A DNA stretch of 10,082 nt, taken from positions 1 to 10,082 of the forward strand of contig JAFAMS010000427.1 of the NCBI GenBank assembly GCA_019233165.1, given 5' to 3'. The stretch comes from Vulcanimicrobiota bacterium. Its GTDB lineage: Bacteria > Vulcanimicrobiota > Vulcanimicrobiia > Vulcanimicrobiales > Vulcanimicrobiaceae. Under the pieces are notes generated by a model. The model did not search any database, had not been told where the DNA came from, and saw nothing but the letters and a program-made list of their open reading frames with translations. How positions within the stretch are numbered: position 1 is the first letter of the stretch; each line of letters starts with the position of its first letter. Both the position numbers and the translations under genes were made by a program. Shown piece after piece: positions 2,311 through 10,082 of this stretch.

Positions 2311-2745
2311 ATGGATTTAACCAAAACCTATCCGCGCAGCGTGCGTGAGAAATATCAAGGGCTGGTGCAACTCGGGCGGACGATCGACAAAGGGAAAGCC
2401 GAACTAGCCGGGACGCTCGGCGAATACCGCTACGACTGTCCGATGGATCAGCATCTGTTCGAGTATCTCGGGACGAACGGCAACGAGTTTCTCGACGCGA
2501 TCAAGAAGGGCGATGCTGCAATCGAAAGCTTCGTGAAATCGCTGCTCGCGAAGAAGACGCCGGCGGAGATCGAGGAGTTCAACCGGGAGTGGCTCGACCA
2601 CGGGCCCGCGCCCGGTTCCGACGGCGAAAAGTACTTCTTGAACCTGCGCAACGAGGTCGCGCCGGATCGCACCGACGTCAAGAGTTGGCCCGATCTGCTC
2701 GATCTCGACGAGAAGCGACCCGTTCCGCAACGGGCGCACGCCTAG
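2311..2745 (+). CDS. DUF5069 domain protein
   Basis: This 144-residue soluble protein starts at ATG 2311 with a clear ribosome binding site (AGGGAG at 2301-2306, 4 bases before the start). An upstream in-frame ATG at 2140 lies inside the amidase gene and is rejected. The N-terminus MDLTKTYPRSVREK, followed by GRTIDKGKAELAGTLGEY and YDCPMDQHLFEYLG, is the hallmark of the DUF5069 family, a small bacterial family of unknown function. The region after residue 85 is acidic, with a predicted helical segment (TPAEIEEFNREWL) and a DLLDLDE tail. It lies 34 bases after the amidase and 2 bases before the probable truA start, so it is probably co-transcribed with both. I see no catalytic motif, signal peptide or membrane segment, and I assign no function. 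Confidence 0.85.
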   Translation: MDLTKTYPRSVREKYQGLVQLGRTIDKGKAELAGTLGEYRYDCPMDQHLFEYLGTNGNEFLDAIKKGDAAIESFVKSLLAKKTPAEIEEFNREWLDHGPAPGSDGEKYFLNLRNEVAPDRTDVKSWPDLLDLDEKRPVPQRAHA

Positions 2746-2747
2746 CG

Positions 2748-3530
2748 CTGCCGACCTACCGGCTCGCCGTCGAATACGACGGGACCGAGTTTCACGGATT
2801 TCAGGTGCAGCCCGGGATCCGTACGGTCGGCGGCGAGCTGGAGGGCGCGCTCTGCGCGCTCTTTCACACGCAAATAGCGGTCTCTGCAGCAGGACGCACC
2901 GACGCGGGCGTCCACGCCAGCGGCCAAGTCGTTTCGTTCAAAAGCGAGCGCGAGTTTCCGGCCGGCCGGCTCGCGCTCGCCCTGAACGCGACGCTTCCCG
3001 ACGACCTGAGCGTACGCGAGGCTGCTCTCGTGGAATCGGGGTTTTCCGCGCGCTTCGACGCGCACGAGCGCGTCTACGAGTACGTGATCCTCAACCGGCC
3101 GATGCCGTCGGCGATCTGCGCGCGCTGGACCCATCACGTCCATCGTCCGATCGACGAGGCGCTCCTCGCGCGCGCCGCGCAAGACCTCGTGGGGCATCAC
3201 GACTTCGTTGCGTTCTGCGGCGTGCTCCCCGAATTCGGCGGCACCGCGCGAACGCTCAACGCGGTCGAGGTCGAGCGCGAAGGCGAGCTGGTCCGAATCA
3301 GGTTGCGCGCCGAGAGCTTCATCCACCGGATGGTGCGGATCGTGGTCGGAACGCTGGTCGAGATTGCGACCGGCCGCCGGGACCCCGAGGAGATCCCACG
3401 GATCCTCGCCTCGCGCGACCGCCGGGAAGCCGGGTACACGGCGCCGCCGGCGGGGCTGTTTCTCGCCGGCGTGCGCTATGCCGACTACGATTCGTACGCC
3501 CGGCCGAGGCTCGCTTATGCCGGGTCATAA
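2748..3530 (+). CDS. truA: tRNA pseudouridine synthase A
   Basis: TruA isomerises uridines 38-40 in the anticodon arm of tRNAs. The catalytic Asp52 sits in AAGRTDAGVHASGQVVSF. The N-terminal strand YRLAVEYDGTEFHGFQ, the FDAHERVYEYVI segment with its stacking Tyr, and SFIHRMVRIVVGTLVEIATG near the C-terminus are all standard TruA elements. Homology begins at LPTYRLAVEYDG, yet no ATG, GTG or TTG lies nearby. The nearest standard start is TTG 2685, 60 bases inside the DUF5069 gene, and it would add a low-complexity Arg/Ser leader. CTG 2748, two bases after the upstream stop, would give a 260-residue protein of normal length and is used here, with the start uncertain. Translation may be coupled to the DUF5069 gene. 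The gene ends at TAA 3530, ten bases before the rplM promoter. Confidence 0.93.
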   Translation: MPTYRLAVEYDGTEFHGFQVQPGIRTVGGELEGALCALFHTQIAVSAAGRTDAGVHASGQVVSFKSEREFPAGRLALALNATLPDDLSVREAALVESGFSARFDAHERVYEYVILNRPMPSAICARWTHHVHRPIDEALLARAAQDLVGHHDFVAFCGVLPEFGGTARTLNAVEVEREGELVRIRLRAESFIHRMVRIVVGTLVEIATGRRDPEEIPRILASRDRREAGYTAPPAGLFLAGVRYADYDSYARPRLAYAGS

Positions 3531-3539
3531 TCCAGGCGC

Positions 3540-3568
3540 TTGACGTTCCGGAAGCCGCCCCGTATACT
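3540..3568 (+). promoter_or_regulatory. sigma70-type promoter of rplM
   Basis: TTGACG (3540-3545) and TATACT (3563-3568) are separated by exactly 17 bases. Each box matches the housekeeping consensus at five of six positions. Transcription would start near 3574-3576, about 44 bases before the rplM ATG. The location in the only gap between truA and rplM supports it. Start-site mapping would confirm it. Confidence 0.8.
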
Positions 3569-3580
3569 ACCTTGGTCCCT

Positions 3581-3606
3581 CACCCCACCCCGGGGTGTTT
3601 TTCTCT
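3581..3606 (+). terminator. terminator-like hairpin in the rplM leader (possible attenuator)
   Basis: CACCCC (3581-3586) pairs with GGGGTG (3592-3597) around the loop ACCCC. It is followed at once by TTTTT (3598-3602) and CTCT. A 6-bp GC-rich stem plus a U run is the form of an intrinsic terminator. It lies downstream of the predicted rplM start site, so it could end transcripts arriving from truA, attenuate rplM transcription, or simply act as a 5' stabilising hairpin. The stem is short, so the termination role is uncertain. Confidence 0.55.
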
Positions 3607-3618
3607 GCCGTGGAGCCG

Positions 3619-4044
3619 ATGCGCACGTACCAACAGAAAACCGCCGAGACCAAACACGACTGGTACATCGTCGATGCAGCCGGTGCGCGTCTCGGCACGC
3701 TTGCAGTTCGGATCGCGCGGGCGCTCTCCGGGAAACACAAACCGACGTGGACGCCGCACATCGACGACGGCGATCACGTCGTCGTGGTGAACGCCGGCCA
3801 GGTCGAGCTGGGCGGGAAGAAGTGGGAGCAAAAAGAGTACCACCGCCACAACCAATATCCCGGCAACCTCAAGACCGAGACCGCCGAGCAGATTCGTGAG
3901 AAGAAGCCCGAGCGACTCGTCGAGATGGCGGTGCGTGGGATGCTTGCCCCCAATCGCATGCGCGCCGCGCAACTGCGCCGCTTGAAAGTTTACGCCGGCG
4001 CCGATCACGAGCACACCGCGCAAAAGCCGCAGCCGCTACCGTAG
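3619..4044 (+). CDS. rplM: 50S ribosomal protein L13
   Basis: L13 is an early-assembling protein of the large ribosomal subunit. The 141-residue product starts at ATG 3619 with GGAG at 3612-3615, just upstream though closely spaced. A GTG at 3595 in frame falls inside the leader hairpin and is rejected. The N-terminal [10 protein letters not shown] and [19 protein letters not shown], the central [22 protein letters not shown], and the C-terminal L13 signature ([18 protein letters not shown], then [19 protein letters not shown]) are all present and in the right order. Length is normal for bacteria (E. coli 142). It heads the rplM-rpsI unit behind its own promoter. The unusual point is the 125-base gap to rpsI, since these two genes are usually close together. 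Confidence 0.97.
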
Positions 4045-4050
4045 GAGATA

Positions 4051-4167
4051 ATGTTGTTACGAGCCCCCTCGGGGAATGTTTACTCTATCGCGATGAACCC
4101 GGGCTCGAAGGCCTGGGGGCCCCACACGAAGTGTGGGGGGCGCGGAGCCTGGGGCGGAGCGCCGTAA
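4051..4167 (+). CDS. possible 38-residue small ORF between rplM and rpsI
   Basis: An ATG at 4051 has a strong ribosome binding site (GGAG at 4044-4047, overlapping the rplM stop). The frame stays open for 38 codons to TAA at 4165-4167, two bases before the rpsI ATG. The predicted peptide begins [18 protein letters not shown] and ends in a Gly/Trp-rich tail ([11 protein letters not shown]) encoded by the palindromic DNA at 4111-4163. I do not recognise it. Its exact fit between the two ribosomal genes suggests translational coupling, either as a leader peptide or simply to keep ribosomes moving toward rpsI. It may also be a chance frame through an inserted repeat. No other genome was available to test conservation. 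Confidence 0.35.
4111..4163 (+). repeat. GC-rich palindromic element between rplM and rpsI
   Basis: CCCCACAC (4120-4127) and GTGTGGGG (4131-4138) form a perfect 8-bp stem with a GAA loop. A second, weaker stem pairs GGCGC (4139-4143) with GCGCC (4159-4163). GCCTGGGG occurs twice in the same orientation (4111-4118 and 4147-4154). No T run follows, so it is not a standard terminator. It resembles a dispersed palindromic (REP-like) unit, or an RNA structure that could stabilise the rplM message or control rpsI translation. Only one copy is seen in this window. Confidence 0.5.
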
Positions 4168-4169
4168 AA

Positions 4170-4562
4170 ATGGATCAGGATTTATTTTTAGGGACGGGGC
4201 GCCGCAAGCGTTCCGTCGCGCGCGTCAAGATCGCGCTTGGTTCGGGCCAAATCACGGTCAACAAGAAGTCGCTCGACGACTACTTTACGCGGGACAGCCT
4301 CAAGCAGATCGTCCGTCAGCCGCTCGAGGTGACGCAGAGCCTCAGCCGTTTCGACGTGATCGTAAAGACGGAAGGCGGCGGGATCGCCGGACAGGCCGGA
4401 GCCGTTCGCCACGGGATCGCTCGGGCGCTCGTTGAGATGGACGAGTCGCTGCGCGAGGTGCTACGCCGGAACGGGCTACTCACCCGCGACCCGCGCGAAA
4501 AAGAATCGAAGAAGTACGGACGCAAGCGCGCCCGCAAACGGTTCCAGTTCTCGAAGCGCTAG
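4170..4562 (+). CDS. rpsI: 30S ribosomal protein S9
   Basis: S9 binds the 3' domain of 16S rRNA in the small-subunit head, and its C-terminal tail touches P-site tRNA. The 130-residue product, the same length as in E. coli, starts at ATG 4170. Its ribosome binding site is distant (GGAG at 4156-4159), and the start lies two bases after a possible upstream small ORF. An in-frame GTG at 4131 lies inside the palindrome and is rejected. Key elements are [14 protein letters not shown] near the N-terminus, the S9 signature [19 protein letters not shown] at about residues 69-87, [20 protein letters not shown] and the strictly conserved SKR terminus. The stop overlaps by four bases with the stop of the convergent gene on the other strand, and no terminator is visible after it. 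Confidence 0.97.
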
Positions 4563-5005
4563 TGGCATTGCCACGCGCAACACCAGATCGCCGGGATTCC
4601 GTTCACATACCAATTCGAGGGACGGAACTCTAGCGAAGCGTCGAGGAGCGCCTGCGGAACGAGGAACGCGAGGTTTCCTTTGATTCGCTGTCGCGGTCCG
4701 AGCACGCCGCCCTCCGAGATGTCGATCGCGCCGAGACCAGGGCGCGCCACGGGATGGTACTTCTTCGAGCCGGCCGTTAGCGTGAAGTCGTCGAGGTTGT
4801 AGGAGACCGTCCCCTTCGACGCGTTCGGGATGACGACGTCCTGAATCACGAGATACTTCATCCCCGCATCTTTCGCCGGCGATTCGATGACGAAGCCGCG
4901 CGAGATCCCGGTTGGAACGCGGACGCATAGCGACTTCTCGGTCGTCGCCGCCGGCGGTGAGGCGTCCGCTGCGAGGATCGTCAGGGCAAACACGAGAGCC
5001 GTCAT
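4559..5005 (-). CDS. small secreted DUF4352-like protein
   Basis: This is a 148-residue protein on the minus strand. The start at 5005 is chosen because it gives a short signal peptide ([18 protein letters not shown], likely cleaved after ADA). Longer in-frame starts run into an Arg/Glu-rich stretch antisense to the flgB-like gene. The mature part alternates strands: [21 protein letters not shown], then [15 protein letters not shown], and later a [15 protein letters not shown] strand pair. That pattern matches the immunoglobulin-like DUF4352 family, which has a solvent-exposed Asn turn and a late GxxxxG-F/V-P motif. The C-terminus is odd, with a WCCAWQCH end rich in Cys and Trp that could form disulfides or bind metal. 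It is convergent with rpsI and divergent from the export operon, from which it is separated by only 36 bases. Function is unknown; an extracytoplasmic location is inferred. Confidence 0.6.
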
Positions 5006-5041: not shown

Positions 5042-5248
5042 GTGTGCGGCATGGAGTCGAACAGTTTTGCCTTCGTTGGCGCGAAGGCCCTCGCCTCGCG
5101 GGACGAGTTGCTCGCGCTCGGCCGGGCTGCCGCGCACGACCGCGGCCCGCAGATCATGGCCGAGATCGGCAAAAGCGCGGTTTTCGAAGAAGCGTTGCTC
5201 GGAGCGCTGCACGCGCACCTAGCCGAGCTCAAAGCGGTGACGCGGTGA
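5042..5248 (+). CDS. flgB: FlgB-like miniature proximal-rod protein
   Basis: The 68-residue protein starts at GTG 5042, four bases after GAGG (5034-5037). ATG 5051 is the alternative but is too far from that site. In flagella FlgB forms the base of the rod on top of FliE. Residues 12-34 (VGAKALASRDELLALGRAAAHDR) look like the N-terminal helix of rod proteins. Residues 39-66 (MAEIGKSAVFEEALLGALHA followed by HLAELKAV) resemble the C-terminal FlgB helix, whose usual form is MA-x-x-A-x-x-x-x-x-Y-x-x-x-L. The roughly 70 intervening residues of normal FlgB (about 135 in total) are missing, including the NxANxxTP motif. Position directly before the flgC-like gene and fliE supports the call. It could also be an unrelated helical-hairpin subunit occupying the rod or needle slot. 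Confidence 0.6.
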   Translation: MCGMESNSFAFVGAKALASRDELLALGRAAAHDRGPQIMAEIGKSAVFEEALLGALHAHLAELKAVTR

Positions 5249-5481
5249 GCGAGCTCGAGCTGCTCGCGGCGGGCGCGGGCGGGATGGCTCGCGAGCGAGC
5301 GAAGCTCGAGGCGTCCGCCTACCGCGTCGCCGAGGCGCAGGTCACAGGTTCGAAGTTTTCCGATTCGCTCGGCGAGATGATCGCAATGCTCGACGCACAG
5401 CGCGCGTACGAGGCGTCGGCATCGGTCTTCGAGGTCGGAAAAAAGATCGCGGAACGAACGATCGATATCGGACGGCTATGA
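5245..5481 (+). CDS. flgC: FlgC-like miniature proximal-rod protein
   Basis: The 78-residue protein starts at GTG 5245, overlapping the upstream TGA as GTGA. Residues 41-77 (LGEMIAMLDAQRAYEASASV, then FEVGKKIAERTIDIGR) are a clear match to the C-terminal helix of FlgC, where the canonical form is EMVxMIxAxRAYxANxxV. Residues 7-32 (LAAGAGGMARERAKLEASAY and following) align with the N-terminal helix, but the usual NxANxxT turn is replaced. The central beta-rich part of normal FlgC (about 134 residues) is absent, so the two helices are joined almost directly. The result has the size and likely hairpin shape of an injectisome needle or inner-rod subunit. It would be exported by the adjacent apparatus and assembled above FliE. 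The next gene overlaps by ATGA. Confidence 0.75.
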   Translation: MSELELLAAGAGGMARERAKLEASAYRVAEAQVTGSKFSDSLGEMIAMLDAQRAYEASASVFEVGKKIAERTIDIGRL

Positions 5482-5747
5482 ACGTCACACCGCTCCAGCC
5501 CGACGCCGGTCCGCAGTCCGCATCGCCGGATGCCGTCGATGGCGAGCTTTTTGCGTCGATCCTCGACGGAGTCGGCACCGCGCTGGCTCGAGCCGATCGT
5601 GCCGAGCGCGCCTTCGCCGAGCGCAAAGGCGGGTTGGTCGAGATGATCGTCGAGCGCGCGGGAGCCGACGTGATGCTCGGGATTGCGGTTGCGGGCGCAC
5701 AGCGAACGACGCAAGCGATCTCGACGCTGCTGGGGATGCAGGTATGA
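5478..5747 (+). CDS. fliE: FliE, MS-ring to rod adapter
   Basis: FliE links the FliF ring to the proximal rod and is itself an export substrate. The 89-residue product (E. coli about 104) starts at ATG 5478, overlapping the flgC-like stop as ATGA. Residues 23-89 carry the family pattern: ELFASILDGVGTALARAD, then a charged stretch (ERAFAERKGG), LVEMIVERAGADVMLGIAVA and the closing QAISTLLGMQV, equivalent to the usual AYQEIMRMQV end. The N-terminal 20 residues are polar, flexible and Pro/Ala-rich, as is common for FliE. Length is only slightly reduced, in contrast to its two upstream neighbours. The stop overlaps the fliF start by ATGA. Similarity is concentrated in the last third, and gene order makes the assignment secure. 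Confidence 0.78.
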   Translation: MNVTPLQPDAGPQSASPDAVDGELFASILDGVGTALARADRAERAFAERKGGLVEMIVERAGADVMLGIAVAGAQRTTQAISTLLGMQV

Positions 5748-7024
5748 GGTTCGACGAGCTTGCGAACGTTTGGGAGCGGCTCGGAAAGCGAGGGCGGCTC
5801 GCGCTTGTAGCCGGCGCGGTCGCCCTTCTCACCGTTTCCGTCCTAATCTCTTCGGCGCTCCACGACAACCGCGTCGCCCTTTTCGCGAGCCCGCTTCAGG
5901 GAGACCAACTCGCCGAGGTCGATGCGCAGCTTTCGATGTGGAGCGTTCCGTTCGTGACCGTTGCCGACAACGTGCGGGTCGACCCCGGCCGGCGCGCCGA
6001 GCTGCTCGCGCGTCTCACGCTCGCCGGAGTCCCTCACGCGCACCTCGCCGGAACGAGCGAAGCGCTCGCGTCGCTCGGCGCGTTGACGCCGCAATCGATT
6101 TTGGACGCGCAGTCGCGCGCCGGACTCGAAGGCGATTTGAGCAAGGGCTTGCGCGGGATCGGTGAGATCGCGGATGCGCGCGTCATCATCGCGCCGGCGC
6201 ACGGCGGTCTCTTCGCCGACGAACCGCCGACGACGGCGAGCGCCAGCGTCCGGCTGACCGCGGTCGGCGGCGCGACGCTCTCGCCGGCGACGCTCGAGGC
6301 GGTTCGCGCGTTCGTCGCAGCGGGCGTCCCCGGATTGCGCGCCGAGCGCGTTACCGTCGTCGACGAGCGCGGTACCGTCGAGAGCGGCGGGGAGCGCGCG
6401 CTCGCCAACCGCCAAGGCGCGCTGCAAAGCGCGCTCGATGCGGCGTTCGGCCCCGGCGCGACGATCGTTCGCGTCCACCTCGACGGCGAGCGAACGACCG
6501 CAGCGGTGATCGTCGATGCCCGCCGCGCGCTCGATCTCGCCAAGATCAAAGAGGTTGCGGCCGCAACCGCCGGGATCGAGCCGCGGCGCGGCGACACGCT
6601 GAGCGTCGAGGAGGTCTCGTTCGATCGTCCGGAGAGCGCGGCTCCGTCCCCGCTCGGAAGAATGCTCGGAATCGCGGTCGAGGCGCTCCCCGTCGTGGCG
6701 ACCGCGGTCGTTGCGATCGTCGCGCTTCGCGCCGGCGCAGAACCGCTCGGCACCCTCGTGCGCGAGATCGTACGGCGCGTGCGCTTTGAGGGGCGCGCCG
6801 CGGAGGCCGTCGCCGGAAGCTTGTCGCCGGATGCAATTTTTGCGATCTTGCGTAACGAACCGCCGCATGCGGCCGCGGCGATAGTGGCAAAGCTCGAGGC
6901 GCCGCTCGCAGCTGCCGTGCTCGAAATGTACGAGCCGGAGCGGCGTCGTGCGATCGTCGCTCGGCTCGCGCGCCGCGTCTCGCCGCTCGTCCCCGACGCA
7001 CAAGCGCTGCTGCGCGATGCCTGA
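5744..7024 (+). CDS. fliF: compact FliF ring protein fused to a FliG middle-domain-like segment
   Basis: The protein has 426 residues (canonical FliF about 550). TM1 is at about 17-38. The first ring-building motif is at about 45-98 (LFASPLQGDQLAEVDAQLSM, then VPFVTVADNVRVD). The second is at about 127-212, with GLEGDLSKGLRGIGEIADAR, then the SASVRLTAVGGATLSPATLE region and RVTVVDERGTV. The third is at about 222-294, where VRVHLDGERTT joins directly to AAVIVDARRALDLAKIKEVA, so the usual beta-collar insertion is gone. TM2 is at about 308-329. After it, residues 356-425 (SLSPDAIFAILRNEPPHAAA, then AAAVLEMYEPERRRAIVARL and SPLVPDAQALL) match the FliG middle domain. The FliM-binding EHPQ motif reads EPPH. 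No separate fliG lies between this gene and fliH. It is predicted to form the inner-membrane ring and hold the cytoplasmic ring. Confidence 0.88.
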   Translation: MRFDELANVWERLGKRGRLALVAGAVALLTVSVLISSALHDNRVALFASPLQGDQLAEVDAQLSMWSVPFVTVADNVRVDPGRRAELLARLTLAGVPHAHLAGTSEALASLGALTPQSILDAQSRAGLEGDLSKGLRGIGEIADARVIIAPAHGGLFADEPPTTASASVRLTAVGGATLSPATLEAVRAFVAAGVPGLRAERVTVVDERGTVESGGERALANRQGALQSALDAAFGPGATIVRVHLDGERTTAAVIVDARRALDLAKIKEVAAATAGIEPRRGDTLSVEEVSFDRPESAAPSPLGRMLGIAVEALPVVATAVVAIVALRAGAEPLGTLVREIVRRVRFEGRAAEAVAGSLSPDAIFAILRNEPPHAAAAIVAKLEAPLAAAVLEMYEPERRRAIVARLARRVSPLVPDAQALLRDA

Positions 7025-7391
7025 GTTTACGAGCCTCGCCACGTTGCTGCGGCCGTCGCCGCCGATCTCGCCGCTGATCGCAGAGCCGAAGCCGCCGCCG
7101 CTGCGCCAGCGAAGCGATCGACTCGACGCCGCGCGAGCGGAAGAACGCTTCGAAGAGCGGTTGCAAATTCTGTTGCGCGAGATTGCGTGCGAGGTGCTCG
7201 GCCGCGAGCTCGTTCTTTCCCCGCCCGCGCTCGAAGAGATCGTCGAACGACTGCGCCGGCGCTATCCGCTGCAAGCCGCGGGCATCGTGCGCACTGCGCC
7301 GAACGGCGATTGCAGCATCGACTCCGACGACGGGCTCCTCGATGCATCGCTCGGACGAAGGCTCGCGGCGGCGCTCGACCGCTCGACGTGA
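7017..7391 (+). CDS. fliH: short FliH-like stator of the export ATPase
   Basis: FliH/SctL proteins hold the export ATPase at the cytoplasmic ring. The 124-residue product starts at ATG 7017, overlapping the fliF stop by eight bases (ATGCCTGA). Residues 1-33 are Pro-rich and flexible. Residues 36-57 form a short charged helix (RLDAARAEERFEERLQILLR). The C-terminal half has the FliH pattern: IACEVLGRELVLSPPALEEI, then a PNGDCSIDSDDGLLDASLGR stretch and RRLAAAL. Normal FliH has about 230 residues, with a long coiled coil of Ala/Gly-heptad type before this region; most of that stalk is missing here. The gene sits directly before fliI with a GTGA overlap, as expected. The identification rests on the C-terminal pattern and gene order. 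Confidence 0.78.
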   Translation: MPEFTSLATLLRPSPPISPLIAEPKPPPLRQRSDRLDAARAEERFEERLQILLREIACEVLGRELVLSPPALEEIVERLRRRYPLQAAGIVRTAPNGDCSIDSDDGLLDASLGRRLAAALDRST

Positions 7392-8602
7392 TCGCCGCTT
7401 GCGGAACGATCGTCGCCTGCCGTGCGCAAGCGCTCGAGGCACGCCTACCCGCGGGGAAGCTCGGCGCCCGCGTTCGCGTCGAAACCTGTCGCGGTGTCGT
7501 GTGGACGACGGTCGCGGCCCTCGAGGGTGCGCGCGCGACGTTGATCCCGCTCGACGATCACCGAAGCGCGGCGTGCGGCGATCGCGCGATCCTCGAAGAG
7601 GGCGCGGGCGGTGCCGTGGTCGGCACTGCGCTGCTGGGGCGCGCGATCGACGGTACGGGCTCTCCGCTCGACGGAGGCGAGCCGCCATCCGGTGTCGCGT
7701 TCGCGCAGGGACTCGACGCGCCCACACTCGGGGAGCGTCGCCTGCCGGCGGTTCCGCTTTGGACGGGACTGCGCGCGCTCGACGGGCTGCTGACGCTCGG
7801 TCGCGGCGGAAGAATCGGCGTTTTCGGGCCGCCCGGGACGGGGAAATCGTTGCTCCTCGAACGGATCGCGCGCGATGCCGACGCCGACGCGGTCGTGATC
7901 GCAGCGATCGGTGAACGCGGCTCGGAAGCGTATCGGCGCCTGCTCGCGCTCGACGCGCGCACGACGCTCGTCTGCGCCTCTTCCGATCGCACCGCCGGCG
8001 AGCGCATCGCCGCCGGAGAACTCGGTTTCGCGCACGCGGAGCGTTTGCGCGCGTACGGGCTCGACGTGCTCCTCGTCTTCGACAGTTTGGCGCGCTACGC
8101 GCAAGCGGGTCGAGAGATCGCGCTCGGGTGCGGTGAAGCGCCCGGCCGCGGCGGGTATCCGCCGAGCGTTCTCGCCCGGCTCGCAAAGCTCGTGGAGCGT
8201 GCCGGAGCGACGGAAAGCGGTTCGATCACGCTCGTTGCGAGCGTCCTAACGGAGGCGGACGACCCCGCCGACCCGCTCGCTGAAGCCGCGCGCTCGCTCC
8301 TCGACGGACACGTGCTGCTCTCGCGCGCGGCTGCCGACGCGGGGAGGTTTCCCGCCATCGATCCGGTCCGCAGCTTGAGCAGGACGATGCTGCAGGTCGT
8401 CGACGCCGGCCACGCCGCCGCAGCGACGCGGGTCCGCGCCGCCCTGGGGCGGCTGGAAGAGAGCCGCGACGCGCGGGCGGTCGGGATCACGGCCCCGGAC
8501 CCCGCCGAGCCCGCAATCGAAGCGTTCCTCCGGCAGGGCGAGGAGATCAGCGCGGCCGAGGAGACCCTGCGGTCCTTGGAGGCACTTGCCGATACCGTAT
8601 GA
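7388..8602 (+). CDS. fliI: flagellar/type III export ATPase FliI
   Basis: FliI is the F1-beta-like hexameric ATPase that unloads chaperone-substrate complexes and aids export. The 404-residue product starts at GTG 7388, overlapping the fliH stop as GTGA. An upstream GTG-initiated frame would run through fliH and is rejected. The Walker A loop is at 147-154 (GPPGTGKS). The catalytic Glu176 lies in GERGSE, and Asp232 is the Walker B residue in LLVFDSLARYAQAGREIAL. EAPGRGGYPPSVLARLAKLV, GSITLVASVLTEADDPADP and LLDGHVLLSR follow as in FliI/SctN. Arg332 in SLSRTM is the likely arginine finger. Compared with the usual 440-460 residues it lacks the N-terminal helix that normally binds FliH. The Walker loop is AAA-like (GPP) instead of the usual GGSGVGKS. 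It appears catalytically intact. Confidence 0.95.
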   Translation: MIAACGTIVACRAQALEARLPAGKLGARVRVETCRGVVWTTVAALEGARATLIPLDDHRSAACGDRAILEEGAGGAVVGTALLGRAIDGTGSPLDGGEPPSGVAFAQGLDAPTLGERRLPAVPLWTGLRALDGLLTLGRGGRIGVFGPPGTGKSLLLERIARDADADAVVIAAIGERGSEAYRRLLALDARTTLVCASSDRTAGERIAAGELGFAHAERLRAYGLDVLLVFDSLARYAQAGREIALGCGEAPGRGGYPPSVLARLAKLVERAGATESGSITLVASVLTEADDPADPLAEAARSLLDGHVLLSRAAADAGRFPAIDPVRSLSRTMLQVVDAGHAAAATRVRAALGRLEESRDARAVGITAPDPAEPAIEAFLRQGEEISAAEETLRSLEALADTV

Positions 8603-9192
8603 GCATGGATTTCGAGTCCGATATTTTGCGCGTCCAGAGCCGGATCGCCGAGATCTTCGGCGTCCCGGCCGAAGCCGACCCGGCAGGTTCCGCGGGGAAC
8701 CTCGGCCCAGGCCACGGCCGTTTTTCCGCAATGGTCAATCAGGCGCTCGCGGGGAACGCCGCAACGGGAGGCCAGGAGACGGCACAAGCCGCGCTCCCGC
8801 CCGAACACATCGAGCAGCTCGTGCAATCGAACGCCTCGGCATGGCAAGTCGATCCCGCGCTGGTCCGTGCGATCATGGCGAATGAGTCGGCGTTCGATCC
8901 GAACGCGACTTCGAAAGTCGGCGCGCAAGGGCTCATGCAACTGATGCCGGAGACCGCAGCCTCGCTTGGCGTGACGAACAGTTACGACCCGGAGCAGAAC
9001 GTGTGGGGCGGGACGCGGTACCTGCGCTCGTTGCTCGACCGCTTCGGCGGTGACCTCACCAAGGCGGTCGCGGCGTACAATGCAGGTCCCGGGGCCGTCG
9101 AGAAGTACGGTGGCGTACCGCCGTACTCGGAGACCCAAGCTTACGTCAAAAACGTCTTGGACTCGTACCAGCAATACAAAGGACAGCCCTAG
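8599..9192 (+). CDS. lytic transglycosylase (SLT domain) of the export operon
   Basis: The 197-residue protein starts at ATG 8599, overlapping the fliI stop as ATGA; a second ATG follows at 8605. Residues about 78-190 form an SLT-type lytic transglycosylase domain. Catalytic Glu96 is in IMANESAFDPNA, followed by GAQGLMQLMPETAASLGV, DPEQNVWGGTRYLRSLLDRF and AVAAYNAGPGAVEKYGGVPP. The enzyme cleaves peptidoglycan between MurNAc and GlcNAc, in this context to open the wall for a rod or needle. The first 75 residues are polar, Gly/Ala/Gln-rich and probably disordered. No Sec signal peptide or membrane segment is seen. Export through the type III apparatus encoded next door, as for FlgJ, is a reasonable inference. 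Its position at the end of the overlapping operon supports a role in assembly. Confidence 0.92.
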   Translation: MSMDFESDILRVQSRIAEIFGVPAEADPAGSAGNLGPGHGRFSAMVNQALAGNAATGGQETAQAALPPEHIEQLVQSNASAWQVDPALVRAIMANESAFDPNATSKVGAQGLMQLMPETAASLGVTNSYDPEQNVWGGTRYLRSLLDRFGGDLTKAVAAYNAGPGAVEKYGGVPPYSETQAYVKNVLDSYQQYKGQP

Positions 9193-10082
9193 ACCGCTAG
9201 CGGCGCTCGCCGCCGGCGCATCGTTTCTTCTGCTTATCGCCGCCGGTCCGCGGCCGGCGCCGCTTCCGTCGGCTGCCGAACTGCTGCAGCGCTACGCGGC
9301 GGCGACCGATTTCCCCGGTGCCGTTCCGATCGAGCGACTCGAGATCTCCGGGCGCGTCAGCGGCTCGGGACTGCAAGGCCGCTTTCATCTCTGGCGCGAC
9401 GGCGCGCACGAGCGGCACGACAGCTCGCTGGGTCCGCGTACCGAGCGCGTCCTCTTCAGCGGCGGGCGCACGACGATCGATGACGGGAACGGCGACGTTC
9501 GCGAGCTGCGAGGGATCGGAGCGCGTCGCGACCGCACGCAGCGTTTCATCGATTCCGGCGAATTCGTCGCGCACCCCGAGAACGTAAAGGTAACCGAAAA
9601 GACCGTCCTGCGCGGCCGCGATGCCTTCGTCCTCGAGGTGACGGCGCCGCAAGGCGAGCCTGAGACGCTCGTCCTCGACGTGGCGAGCGCGCGTCCGCTG
9701 CGCGAGGAATATATCGAAGGCGACGGCCCGCTGACCGTCGACTTCGATTCGTATCGCGAGATCCAGGGGCATCTCTTCCCGTGGCAAACGACGATCTCCG
9801 ACGGAGAGCACGCGTTCGACTTCGTCGAGACGACCGAACGGGTCTCGATCGACGGTCCGCTGCCCGACGACGTCTTCGCGCCCTTCGTCCCACGTTATTT
9901 CGAGCTCGATGCGCCGGTCTCGATTCCGATCGTGGAGCAAGGCGCGCATCTCGTTTGCGATGCGACGGTGGGAACCAAGACGTACCGGTTTCTGATCGAT
10001 TCCGGCGCTTCGGGGATCGTCCTCGATTCGCGGATCGTCCGCGAGCAACGGATGCGCGAAGAGGGTTCGCTCGAAGTCCGCG
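9110..10082 (+). CDS. exported LolA-like / retropepsin-type aspartic protease (3' end outside window)
   Basis: The frame is open from GTG 9110 to the end of the window. GTG 9110 is the only standard start before the signal-like segment; it overlaps the transglycosylase gene by 83 bases, so the start is uncertain and a rare start nearer 9190 is possible. A basic Arg-Pro stretch is followed by LAALAAGASFLLLIAAG (about 9197-9247), a Sec-type signal or anchor. Bases about 9275-9890 encode a beta-rich domain (LEISGRVSGSG, TVLRGRDAFVLEV, ARPLREEYIEGDGPLTVDFD, then FPWQTTISDG) resembling LolA/outer-membrane lipoprotein-sorting folds. A retropepsin-like domain then starts, with FLIDSGASGIVLDS; the catalytic Asp is at 9998-10000. 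Such single-domain proteases act as dimers, and a PDZ domain may follow downstream. Whether it belongs to the export operon is unknown. Confidence 0.75.
   Translation, partial: MAYRRTRRPKLTSKTSWTRTSNTKDSPRPLAALAAGASFLLLIAAGPRPAPLPSAAELLQRYAAATDFPGAVPIERLEISGRVSGSGLQGRFHLWRDGAHERHDSSLGPRTERVLFSGGRTTIDDGNGDVRELRGIGARRDRTQRFIDSGEFVAHPENVKVTEKTVLRGRDAFVLEVTAPQGEPETLVLDVASARPLREEYIEGDGPLTVDFDSYREIQGHLFPWQTTISDGEHAFDFVETTERVSIDGPLPDDVFAPFVPRYFELDAPVSIPIVEQGAHLVCDATVGTKTYRFLIDSGASGIVLDSRIVREQRMREEGSLEVR

Follow-up and report, generated by a model that had tools for sequence, protein, structure and literature searches.

What would a set of flagellar genes build when nearly every structural part has shrunk? 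The question is raised by a stretch of 10,082 bases from a Vulcanimicrobiota bacterium (JAFAMS010000427.1), hereafter the window, which is the whole of contig C352 in a draft genome of 2.79 Mb, 541 contigs, and 80% completeness. A first-pass annotation, made from the letters alone, had reported seven genes with 4- to 8-base overlaps in flagellar order at positions 5042–9192. The frames were found as described: seven overlapping reading frames run from flgB to an SLT lytic transglycosylase gene, with successive overlaps of 4, 4, 4, 8, 4, and 4 bases, and the operon is confirmed as real and intact. It is probably, though far from certainly, one half of a non-motile, rod-building, flagellum-derived type III export machine that was exapted within the phylum.

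A conserved cluster and a second locus

The window operon makes up the leading half of a conserved cluster with the order truA-rplM-rpsI-flgB-flgC-fliE-fliF::fliG_M-fliH-fliI-SLT-(protease)-fliK-flgE-like-fliM-fliN-fliP-(metF)-fliQ-fliR-flhB-flhA. The second half in the same genome, from the FliK-like frame to flhA, lies on contig C522. One relative (G018) carries the cluster on a single contig, where rplM and rpsI are followed by DUF3810, flgB, flgC, fliE, fliF, fliH, fliI, a FliK-like frame, a 237-aa axial protein, a FliM-like SpoA protein, fliN, fliP, metF, fliQ, fliR, flhB, and flhA. Iterated profiles recovered the same order in most of 55 named loci as far as the contigs run, with the truA-rplM-rpsI anchor upstream in most of those reaching far enough. 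Departures consist of contig-end gaps, rearranged loci (e.g., L140 and L160), and a split over two places in genomes of family f3; the FlgB profile gave no match in most f3 loci. A metF gene (methylenetetrahydrofolate reductase) sits between fliP and fliQ in L036, L002, and most loci of family f1, and was not found there in the family f2 loci L049, L050, L154, and L155.

The first-pass annotation had proposed a search for export-gate and C-ring genes, and fliM, fliN, fliP, fliQ, fliR, flhB, and flhA all turned up in the conserved cluster. With the profiles built here, the eight core genes equivalent to sctJNQRSTUV (fliF, fliI, fliN/M, fliP, fliQ, fliR, flhB, and flhA) fall in one cluster; the rule given in passages of Abby and Rocha (2012; PMC3459982) asks for at least seven of the eight, as detected with that paper's own profiles. 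The 237-aa protein is FlgE-like: its profile matched solved FlgE (5.9e-14) and aligned over its full length with less reduced FlgE/F/G proteins (hhalign probability 99.8), and the model of a relative (predicted local distance difference test, pLDDT, 90.8) has a beta domain flanked by N- and C-terminal helices and matches distal-rod and hook chains. The FliM-like protein aligned with FliM over 222 columns (hhalign probability 97.5).

A second locus encodes FlgF-like and FlgG-like proteins and a sigma-70-type factor; in the window's genome it was read by eye on contig C423, and in one f3 genome it includes a weak rod-binding (FlgJ N-type) match (0.0066). In f1 and f3 genomes (L086, L087, L088, and L092) this locus lies near divIVA, sepF, and yggS, DivIVA being recognized by Pfam and the other two by eye.

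The proposed search of related genomes for the same reduced set was equally productive. In a set of 60 genomes that includes the window's own, of which 55 belong to the class (G000–G054), short FliF was present in 52 of the 55 and missing from G005, G025, and G034. A phylum-wide survey of 149 genomes, 117 of them in the class, counted a FliF as short-type at a best E value of 1e-78 or below; four class genomes at 1e-22 to 1e-28 were left uncounted, and the best value outside the class was 1.4e-50. On this scale, 103 of the 117 class genomes carry short FliF. Flagellin (PF00669) exceeded its cut-off in 46 of the 103 and not in the other 57, seven of which have a match under the cut-off (taken by subtraction to be the genomes with the weakest matches, 68 genomes being matched and 61 over the cut-off). 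Within the class, the reduced system therefore reaches more genomes than flagellin does (103 versus 50).

Within the 60-genome set, 28 short-FliF genomes, 14 each of families f1 and f3, gave no match for flagellin, FlgI, the MotB plug, or FlgD; MotA, FlgH, a separate FliG, and secretins genome-wide were outside this search. FlhA was found in 27 of these marker-free genomes, four times partial or split, and not in G054. Exactly three Flg_bbr_C matches occur in 24 of the 28 and, where inspected, correspond by place to FlgC and the FlgF/FlgG pair.

The reduced system can stand beside an ordinary one. The window's genome also holds a full-length FliF with a FliG recognized by eye beside it, flagellin, and FlgI, while the MotB plug, FlgD, and a canonical FlhA were not found in this 80% draft; G001, of the same genus, has canonical FlhA, flagellin, FlgI, the MotB plug, and FlgD. 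The first-pass annotation had named a complete full-length second set, together with a reduced copy that is rare and decaying among relatives, as the finding that would speak against it. The former is partly present in FliF, FliG, flagellin, and FlgI; the latter is refuted by the class-wide distribution. As a separate observation, G022 carries two diverged reduced clusters (L053 and L104) and has the MotB plug and FlgD with no flagellin match.

One carrier, G008, is very probably the cultured species Vulcanimicrobium alpinum (named V. alpinus in the original description; alpinum in a published correction). Its single contig of 3,508,363 bases has 69% G+C in the stretches examined and two type II reaction-centre matches, of which none occurred in five other genomes checked. 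Passages of the description of V. alpinus WC8-2 (PMC9758169) report a complete genome of 3.50 Mb with 68.4% G+C, phototrophy, type IV pili by which the cells move, and an outer membrane covered with lipopolysaccharide, with no flagella seen and no flagellin gene. G008 carries the cluster, including an FlhA of its own, and its only FliF is of the short type; none of flagellin, FlgI, the MotB plug, and FlgD was matched in it.

Export, scaffold, or rotation

The gene content suggests the following arrangement. FliP, FliQ, FliR, FlhB, and FlhA would make up the gate, housed in a small MS ring built from FliF, which in the window has no beta-collar. The fused FliG remnant, FliM, and FliN would make up a C-ring that recruits FliH, FliI, and substrates, with no torque domain encoded in the cluster. 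FliE, FlgB, FlgC, FlgF, FlgG, and the small FlgE-like protein would pass through the gate and assemble into a short hollow rod, for which the SLT enzyme may open the wall. The FliK-like protein would act as a ruler and, with FlhB, switch export to putative later substrates, so that proteins beyond the machine's own rod may be secreted. The retention of the FliK-like protein and of the Asn-Pro of the FlhB cleavage site argues for such a switch; Asn-Pro is kept in 10 of 10 reduced sequences inspected, while the next two residues (Thr-His) vary in nine. FliG is present in the cluster only as the middle domain on FliF, and the absence of FliG_C there together with the missing MotB plugs argues against rotation. 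Judged by gene content, the system is probably non-motile in at least the 28 marker-free genomes.

Several observations weigh against a dedicated export machine of this kind. Fourteen of the 117 class genomes lack short FliF, four of them with flagellin and ten without. In the genus coded g36, which has no flagellin over the cut-off, 7 of 18 genomes (G075, G076, G078, G080, G081, G082, and G084) give sub-cut-off Flagellin_N matches (about 1e-5 to 4e-4); the source was not among the ten cluster and rod-locus proteins scanned in two g36 genomes, and may possibly be a divergent axial substrate. No P ring (FlgI) turned up in the 28 genomes, even though an outer membrane is reported for the cultured relative, and no secretin was noticed between rpsI and flhA of G018, the stretch that was read. 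The name of the FliK-like protein is weakly founded, with Flg_hook Pfam support in 3 of 21 members, and the L053 cluster of G022 lacks fliI.

The missing P ring would suit a periplasmic structural or signalling device, in which the rod is built, nothing else is exported, and the gate parts may serve type IV pili. Lysobacter enzymogenes offers a parallel, its FlhA, FlhB, FliI, and FliR affecting twitching according to PMC7277350, and V. alpinus likewise moves by type IV pili. However, the retained FliK-like protein and FlhB Asn-Pro argue for a switch to late substrates, and Lysobacter has lost flgB and fliE (in the portion of PMC9927559 concerned with its gene losses), both of which the reduced system keeps. 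The device is a minority possibility, with a real but modest share of the probability.

A compact true flagellum, with a divergent filament protein and stators that escape recognition, is unlikely. The rod genes, the FlgE-like and FliK-like proteins, and the flagellin-like matches of the seven g36 genomes would be expected of it. Against it stand the FliG of the cluster, which keeps only its middle domain (a separate FliG elsewhere being outside the search), the unmatched MotB plug and FlgD in the 28 genomes, the lack of visible flagella in the passages on V. alpinus, and the 46 genomes that hold the reduced system alongside flagellin. The first-pass annotation had left the choice between a compact flagellum and a non-flagellar secretion system; for the marker-free genomes the former is unlikely.

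Conservation, descent, and known relatives

A decaying flagellar relic or an assembly artefact is very improbable: the very short parts of the window member and its fragmented, incomplete draft speak for it, whereas short FliF is class-wide, identical reduction recurs in single-contig and long-contig genomes, and purifying selection acts on those cluster genes for which an estimate is finite. Their ratios of nonsynonymous to synonymous substitution rates (dN/dS) range from 0.05 to 0.36, against 0.02 to 0.15 for ribosomal genes, over three pairs, two close and one moderately diverged (L154/L155, L158/L120, and L154/L049). In a fourth pair (L158/L134), close to saturation and the only one that included flgB, this gene gave no finite dS; flhA was not among the genes compared. 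Conservation and dN/dS refute decay in practice. The first-pass annotation had observed that the ATPase keeps its catalytic motifs and had argued that a reduction coherent across genes is not decay. Both points hold, the second also in view of the export gate on C522 of the same genome. Nine reduced FliIs, aligned with three flagellar ones, keep Walker A, the catalytic glutamate, and Walker B. An apparently missing catalytic motif in f3 FliIs was rejected as an artefact of the search pattern, the alignment showing the motifs present. The system is real, intact, conserved, and old.

Equally improbable is membership of a known injectisome lineage that has lost its secretin, as in the Myxo systems: a conserved export gate and ATPase with no filament found would fit, but both FlhA and FlhB fall with the flagella when set against four and two injectisome sequences, respectively, and FlgB, FlgC, and FliE are present, which passages of Abby and Rocha (PMC3459982) treat as absent from non-flagellar type III secretion systems (NF-T3SS); the trees and the rod genes lead to its rejection.

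In the FlhA tree (50 sequences, rooted on four injectisome SctVs), all 18 reduced FlhAs, from f1, f2, and f3, form one clade (support 100/100) on a long stem. Its neighbours (100/99), also within the flagellar part of the tree, are FlhAs from three further families of the phylum, and the canonical FlhAs of f1 and f2 form a separate clade. The FlhB tree (54 sequences) groups 27 reduced sequences (92/85), again on the flagellar side. Flagellar sequences are separated from the injectisome outgroup with 100/100 for FlhA and 100/99 for FlhB, the outgroup comprising only four and two rows, respectively. The FlhB tree did not settle the sister relation to those three further families (approximately unbiased test, p-AU 0.219), and both trees were flagged for long branches and letter composition. 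On these trees, the system is flagellar by descent and stands away from the injectisomes, which fits the independence that the first-pass annotation had suggested. FlhA matches of the C-terminal part alone, without the membrane half, were also noted in G002, G055, G056, G057 (several), and G058.

The reduction comes in grades. G058, of family f7 and 86% complete, has a like gene order on two contigs with full-length parts: FlgB of 154 aa (by position), FlgC of 151 aa, FliF of 574 aa, a complete FliG of 320 aa, FliJ, and FliM, with the SLT gene within the cluster. Neither it nor G055, G057, and G059 gave a flagellin, FlgI, MotB plug, or FlgD match, these genomes being 62–90% complete; across the phylum outside the class, 29 genomes have a FliF match and 18 of them no flagellin match. 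In f3, FliG occurs in the cluster only as the tail of FliF, and one f3 genome has a FlgB of 108 aa and a FlgC of 131 aa. Family f1 has a FlgB of about 71 aa and a FlgC of about 109 aa, and the window is smaller still (FlgB 65, FlgC 78, and FliF 426 aa).

FliF illustrates the last step. The window protein matches PF01514 (1.2e-19), PF08345 (1.7e-05), and FliG_M (PF14841, 2.7e-08), the last confirming the fused FliG middle domain claimed at first pass. Its model (mean pLDDT 83.4; predicted template modelling score 0.40) can be read, element by element, as TM1, RBM1, RBM2, an RBM3 core, TM2, and FliG-type helices, with a tight hairpin in place of the collar in the RBM3 core. A profile built from 88 FliFs hits solved FliF chains and, with its end, FliG chains. 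The segment missing from the window protein, about 61 residues, would sit between two RBM3 strands. The first-pass statement that FliF lacks a beta-collar is right for the window member and a few lineages and wrong for the family, since 66 of 77 rows keep the segment. It is absent from 11, only partly so in L141 and L144; the proportion is not a frequency, as P0034, P0068, and P0104 were picked for shortness. Two of 79 rows, L129 and L146, were dropped for false N-terminal extensions; the broken FliF frame of G019 was left as is in an 18-row alignment and omitted from the FliF trees. On a tree built without the segment columns, presence and absence require six changes, five of them forced by well-supported branches, a pattern that would be explained most simply by repeated deletions.

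There is about an even chance that the system records a second case, independent of the injectisomes and distinct from them, of a flagellum exapted as a dedicated non-motile secretion machine, with intermediate grades in one phylum and its own putative class of substrates. The grades would lead from full-length parts without a flagellin match (outgroups) through fusion of FliG and shrinkage of the rod (f3) and a further decrease in size (f1) to loss of the collar in single lineages.

Compared with the bacterial flagellum, the parts are homologous, and the order flgB-flgC-fliE-fliF...fliI-fliK-flgE-fliM-fliN-fliP-Q-R-flhB-flhA is shared, a like order occurring with full-size parts in G058; the rod proteins FliE, FlgB, FlgC, FlgF, and FlgG of motile flagella are represented (FlgB by position and size gradation only). 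The differences are the miniaturized parts, the FliG middle domain carried on FliF as the only FliG of the cluster, and the four unmatched markers in the 28 genomes. With the NF-T3SS, including the Myxo type, the system shares the export gate, the ATPase, and a putative non-motile fate; in contrast to them, it keeps flgB, flgC, and fliE and is placed inside the flagella, which we read as pointing to a separate origin. The portion of Abby and Rocha consulted (PMC3459982) infers an injectisome ancestor without a secretin and with a periplasmic or extracellular structure, of which the reduced system may be read as an independent analogue.

The closest precedents for flagellar export without a filament that a literature search brought up are Buchnera and L. 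enzymogenes. Buchnera basal bodies keep basal body and export genes and have lost flagellin and motor genes, but their parts have not shrunk from the usual size, and flgH and some hook genes are among them (in the sections cited from PMC8109811), whereas the reduced system extends over the class, is shrunken, and may stand beside flagellin. L. enzymogenes, a soil bacterium that lacks flagella and has type IV pili, carries functional flagellar export genes (PMC9927559 and PMC7277350); Lysobacter has lost flgB, fliE, fliG, and fliM (PMC9927559, in part), whereas the reduced system keeps rod and C-ring genes. Export genes kept with flagellin and stator unmatched, the combination seen in both, occur in 28 genomes, 27 of them with FlhA, the stator being represented by the MotB plug, with MotA outside the search. 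Among publications on flagella or type III secretion in Eremiobacterota, WPS-2, or Vulcanimicrobiota, no open-licence title or abstract opening described the system.

The route from a flagellum to a dedicated secretion system has been traced mainly in a single lineage, the injectisomes, in the passages of Abby and Rocha (PMC3459982). If the independent exaptation is true, a graded case in one phylum opens the sequence of losses and the smallest working set to direct test, and a carrier that very probably belongs to a species in culture and lacking flagella adds to this. The same passages take FlgB, FlgC, and FliE as flagellum-specific and score clusters with at least 10 flagellar genes and no secretin as flagella; a gene-count rule of this kind might score the present cluster as a flagellum, and sources label its genes "flagellar", so motility may be over-predicted in the phylum.

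The window and its genes

Features of the window, with coordinates and the basis of each name
Feature	Position	Strand	Basis or remark
truA - rplM - rpsI, syntenic anchor upstream of the operon	2742..4562	+	
FlgB-like proximal rod protein, 65-aa helical remnant	5051..5248	+	GTG alternative start at 5042
FlgC-like rod protein, 78-aa helical hairpin	5245..5481	+	Pfam PF06429, 9e-07
FliE	5478..5747	+	Position and relatives, which match PF02049 at 4.9e-06 and 2e-06, over cut-off
FliF fused to FliG middle domain (about residues 362-425), without beta-collar	5744..7024	+	Pfam, alignment, model, profile
FliH, about half length	7017..7391	+	PF02108 0.0014, under cut-off; a relative at 1.2e-08, over cut-off
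FliI-type ATPase	7388..8602	+	PF00006 1.8e-63; GPPGTGKS (Walker A), GERG, VFDSLAR
SLT lytic transglycosylase	8599..9192	+	PF01464 5.2e-32; homologue within the same cluster of G058
LolA-like and aspartyl-protease-like protein, hydrophobic start	9197..10082, runs off the contig	+	Start uncertain; frame open from 9050

Four of the seven operon products score above the Pfam cut-off of a flagellar, ATPase, or SLT domain, and FliH falls just under its own. The window FliE has no Pfam match, nor has the window FlgB or any short-kind FlgB scanned from relatives. FlgB is recognized by a profile of its own and the same position in most f1 and f2 loci, and is named by that position and by the gradation in size from G058 through one f3 genome to f1. 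The 109-aa FlgC relative in G018 also gives a weak Flg_bb_rod match under the cut-off. The protein at the contig end shows a weak Asp_protease_2 match (0.0041) that reaches 7.9e-20 in a full-length relative; its gene follows the SLT gene directly in many relatives and is absent from others.

Two further genes border the cluster. A membrane protein of the DUF3810 family with an HEWxH motif seen by eye (L036:17814-18860), which we take to be a protease, often adjoins flgB on its upstream side in many f1 loci. In the window, positions 4559–5005 on the minus strand encode a small protein whose start, judged by eye, is signal-like; its gene diverges from flgB across a gap of about 45 bases, and a profile placed relatives of it near the cluster in L046, L051, L052, L123, L127, and L184.

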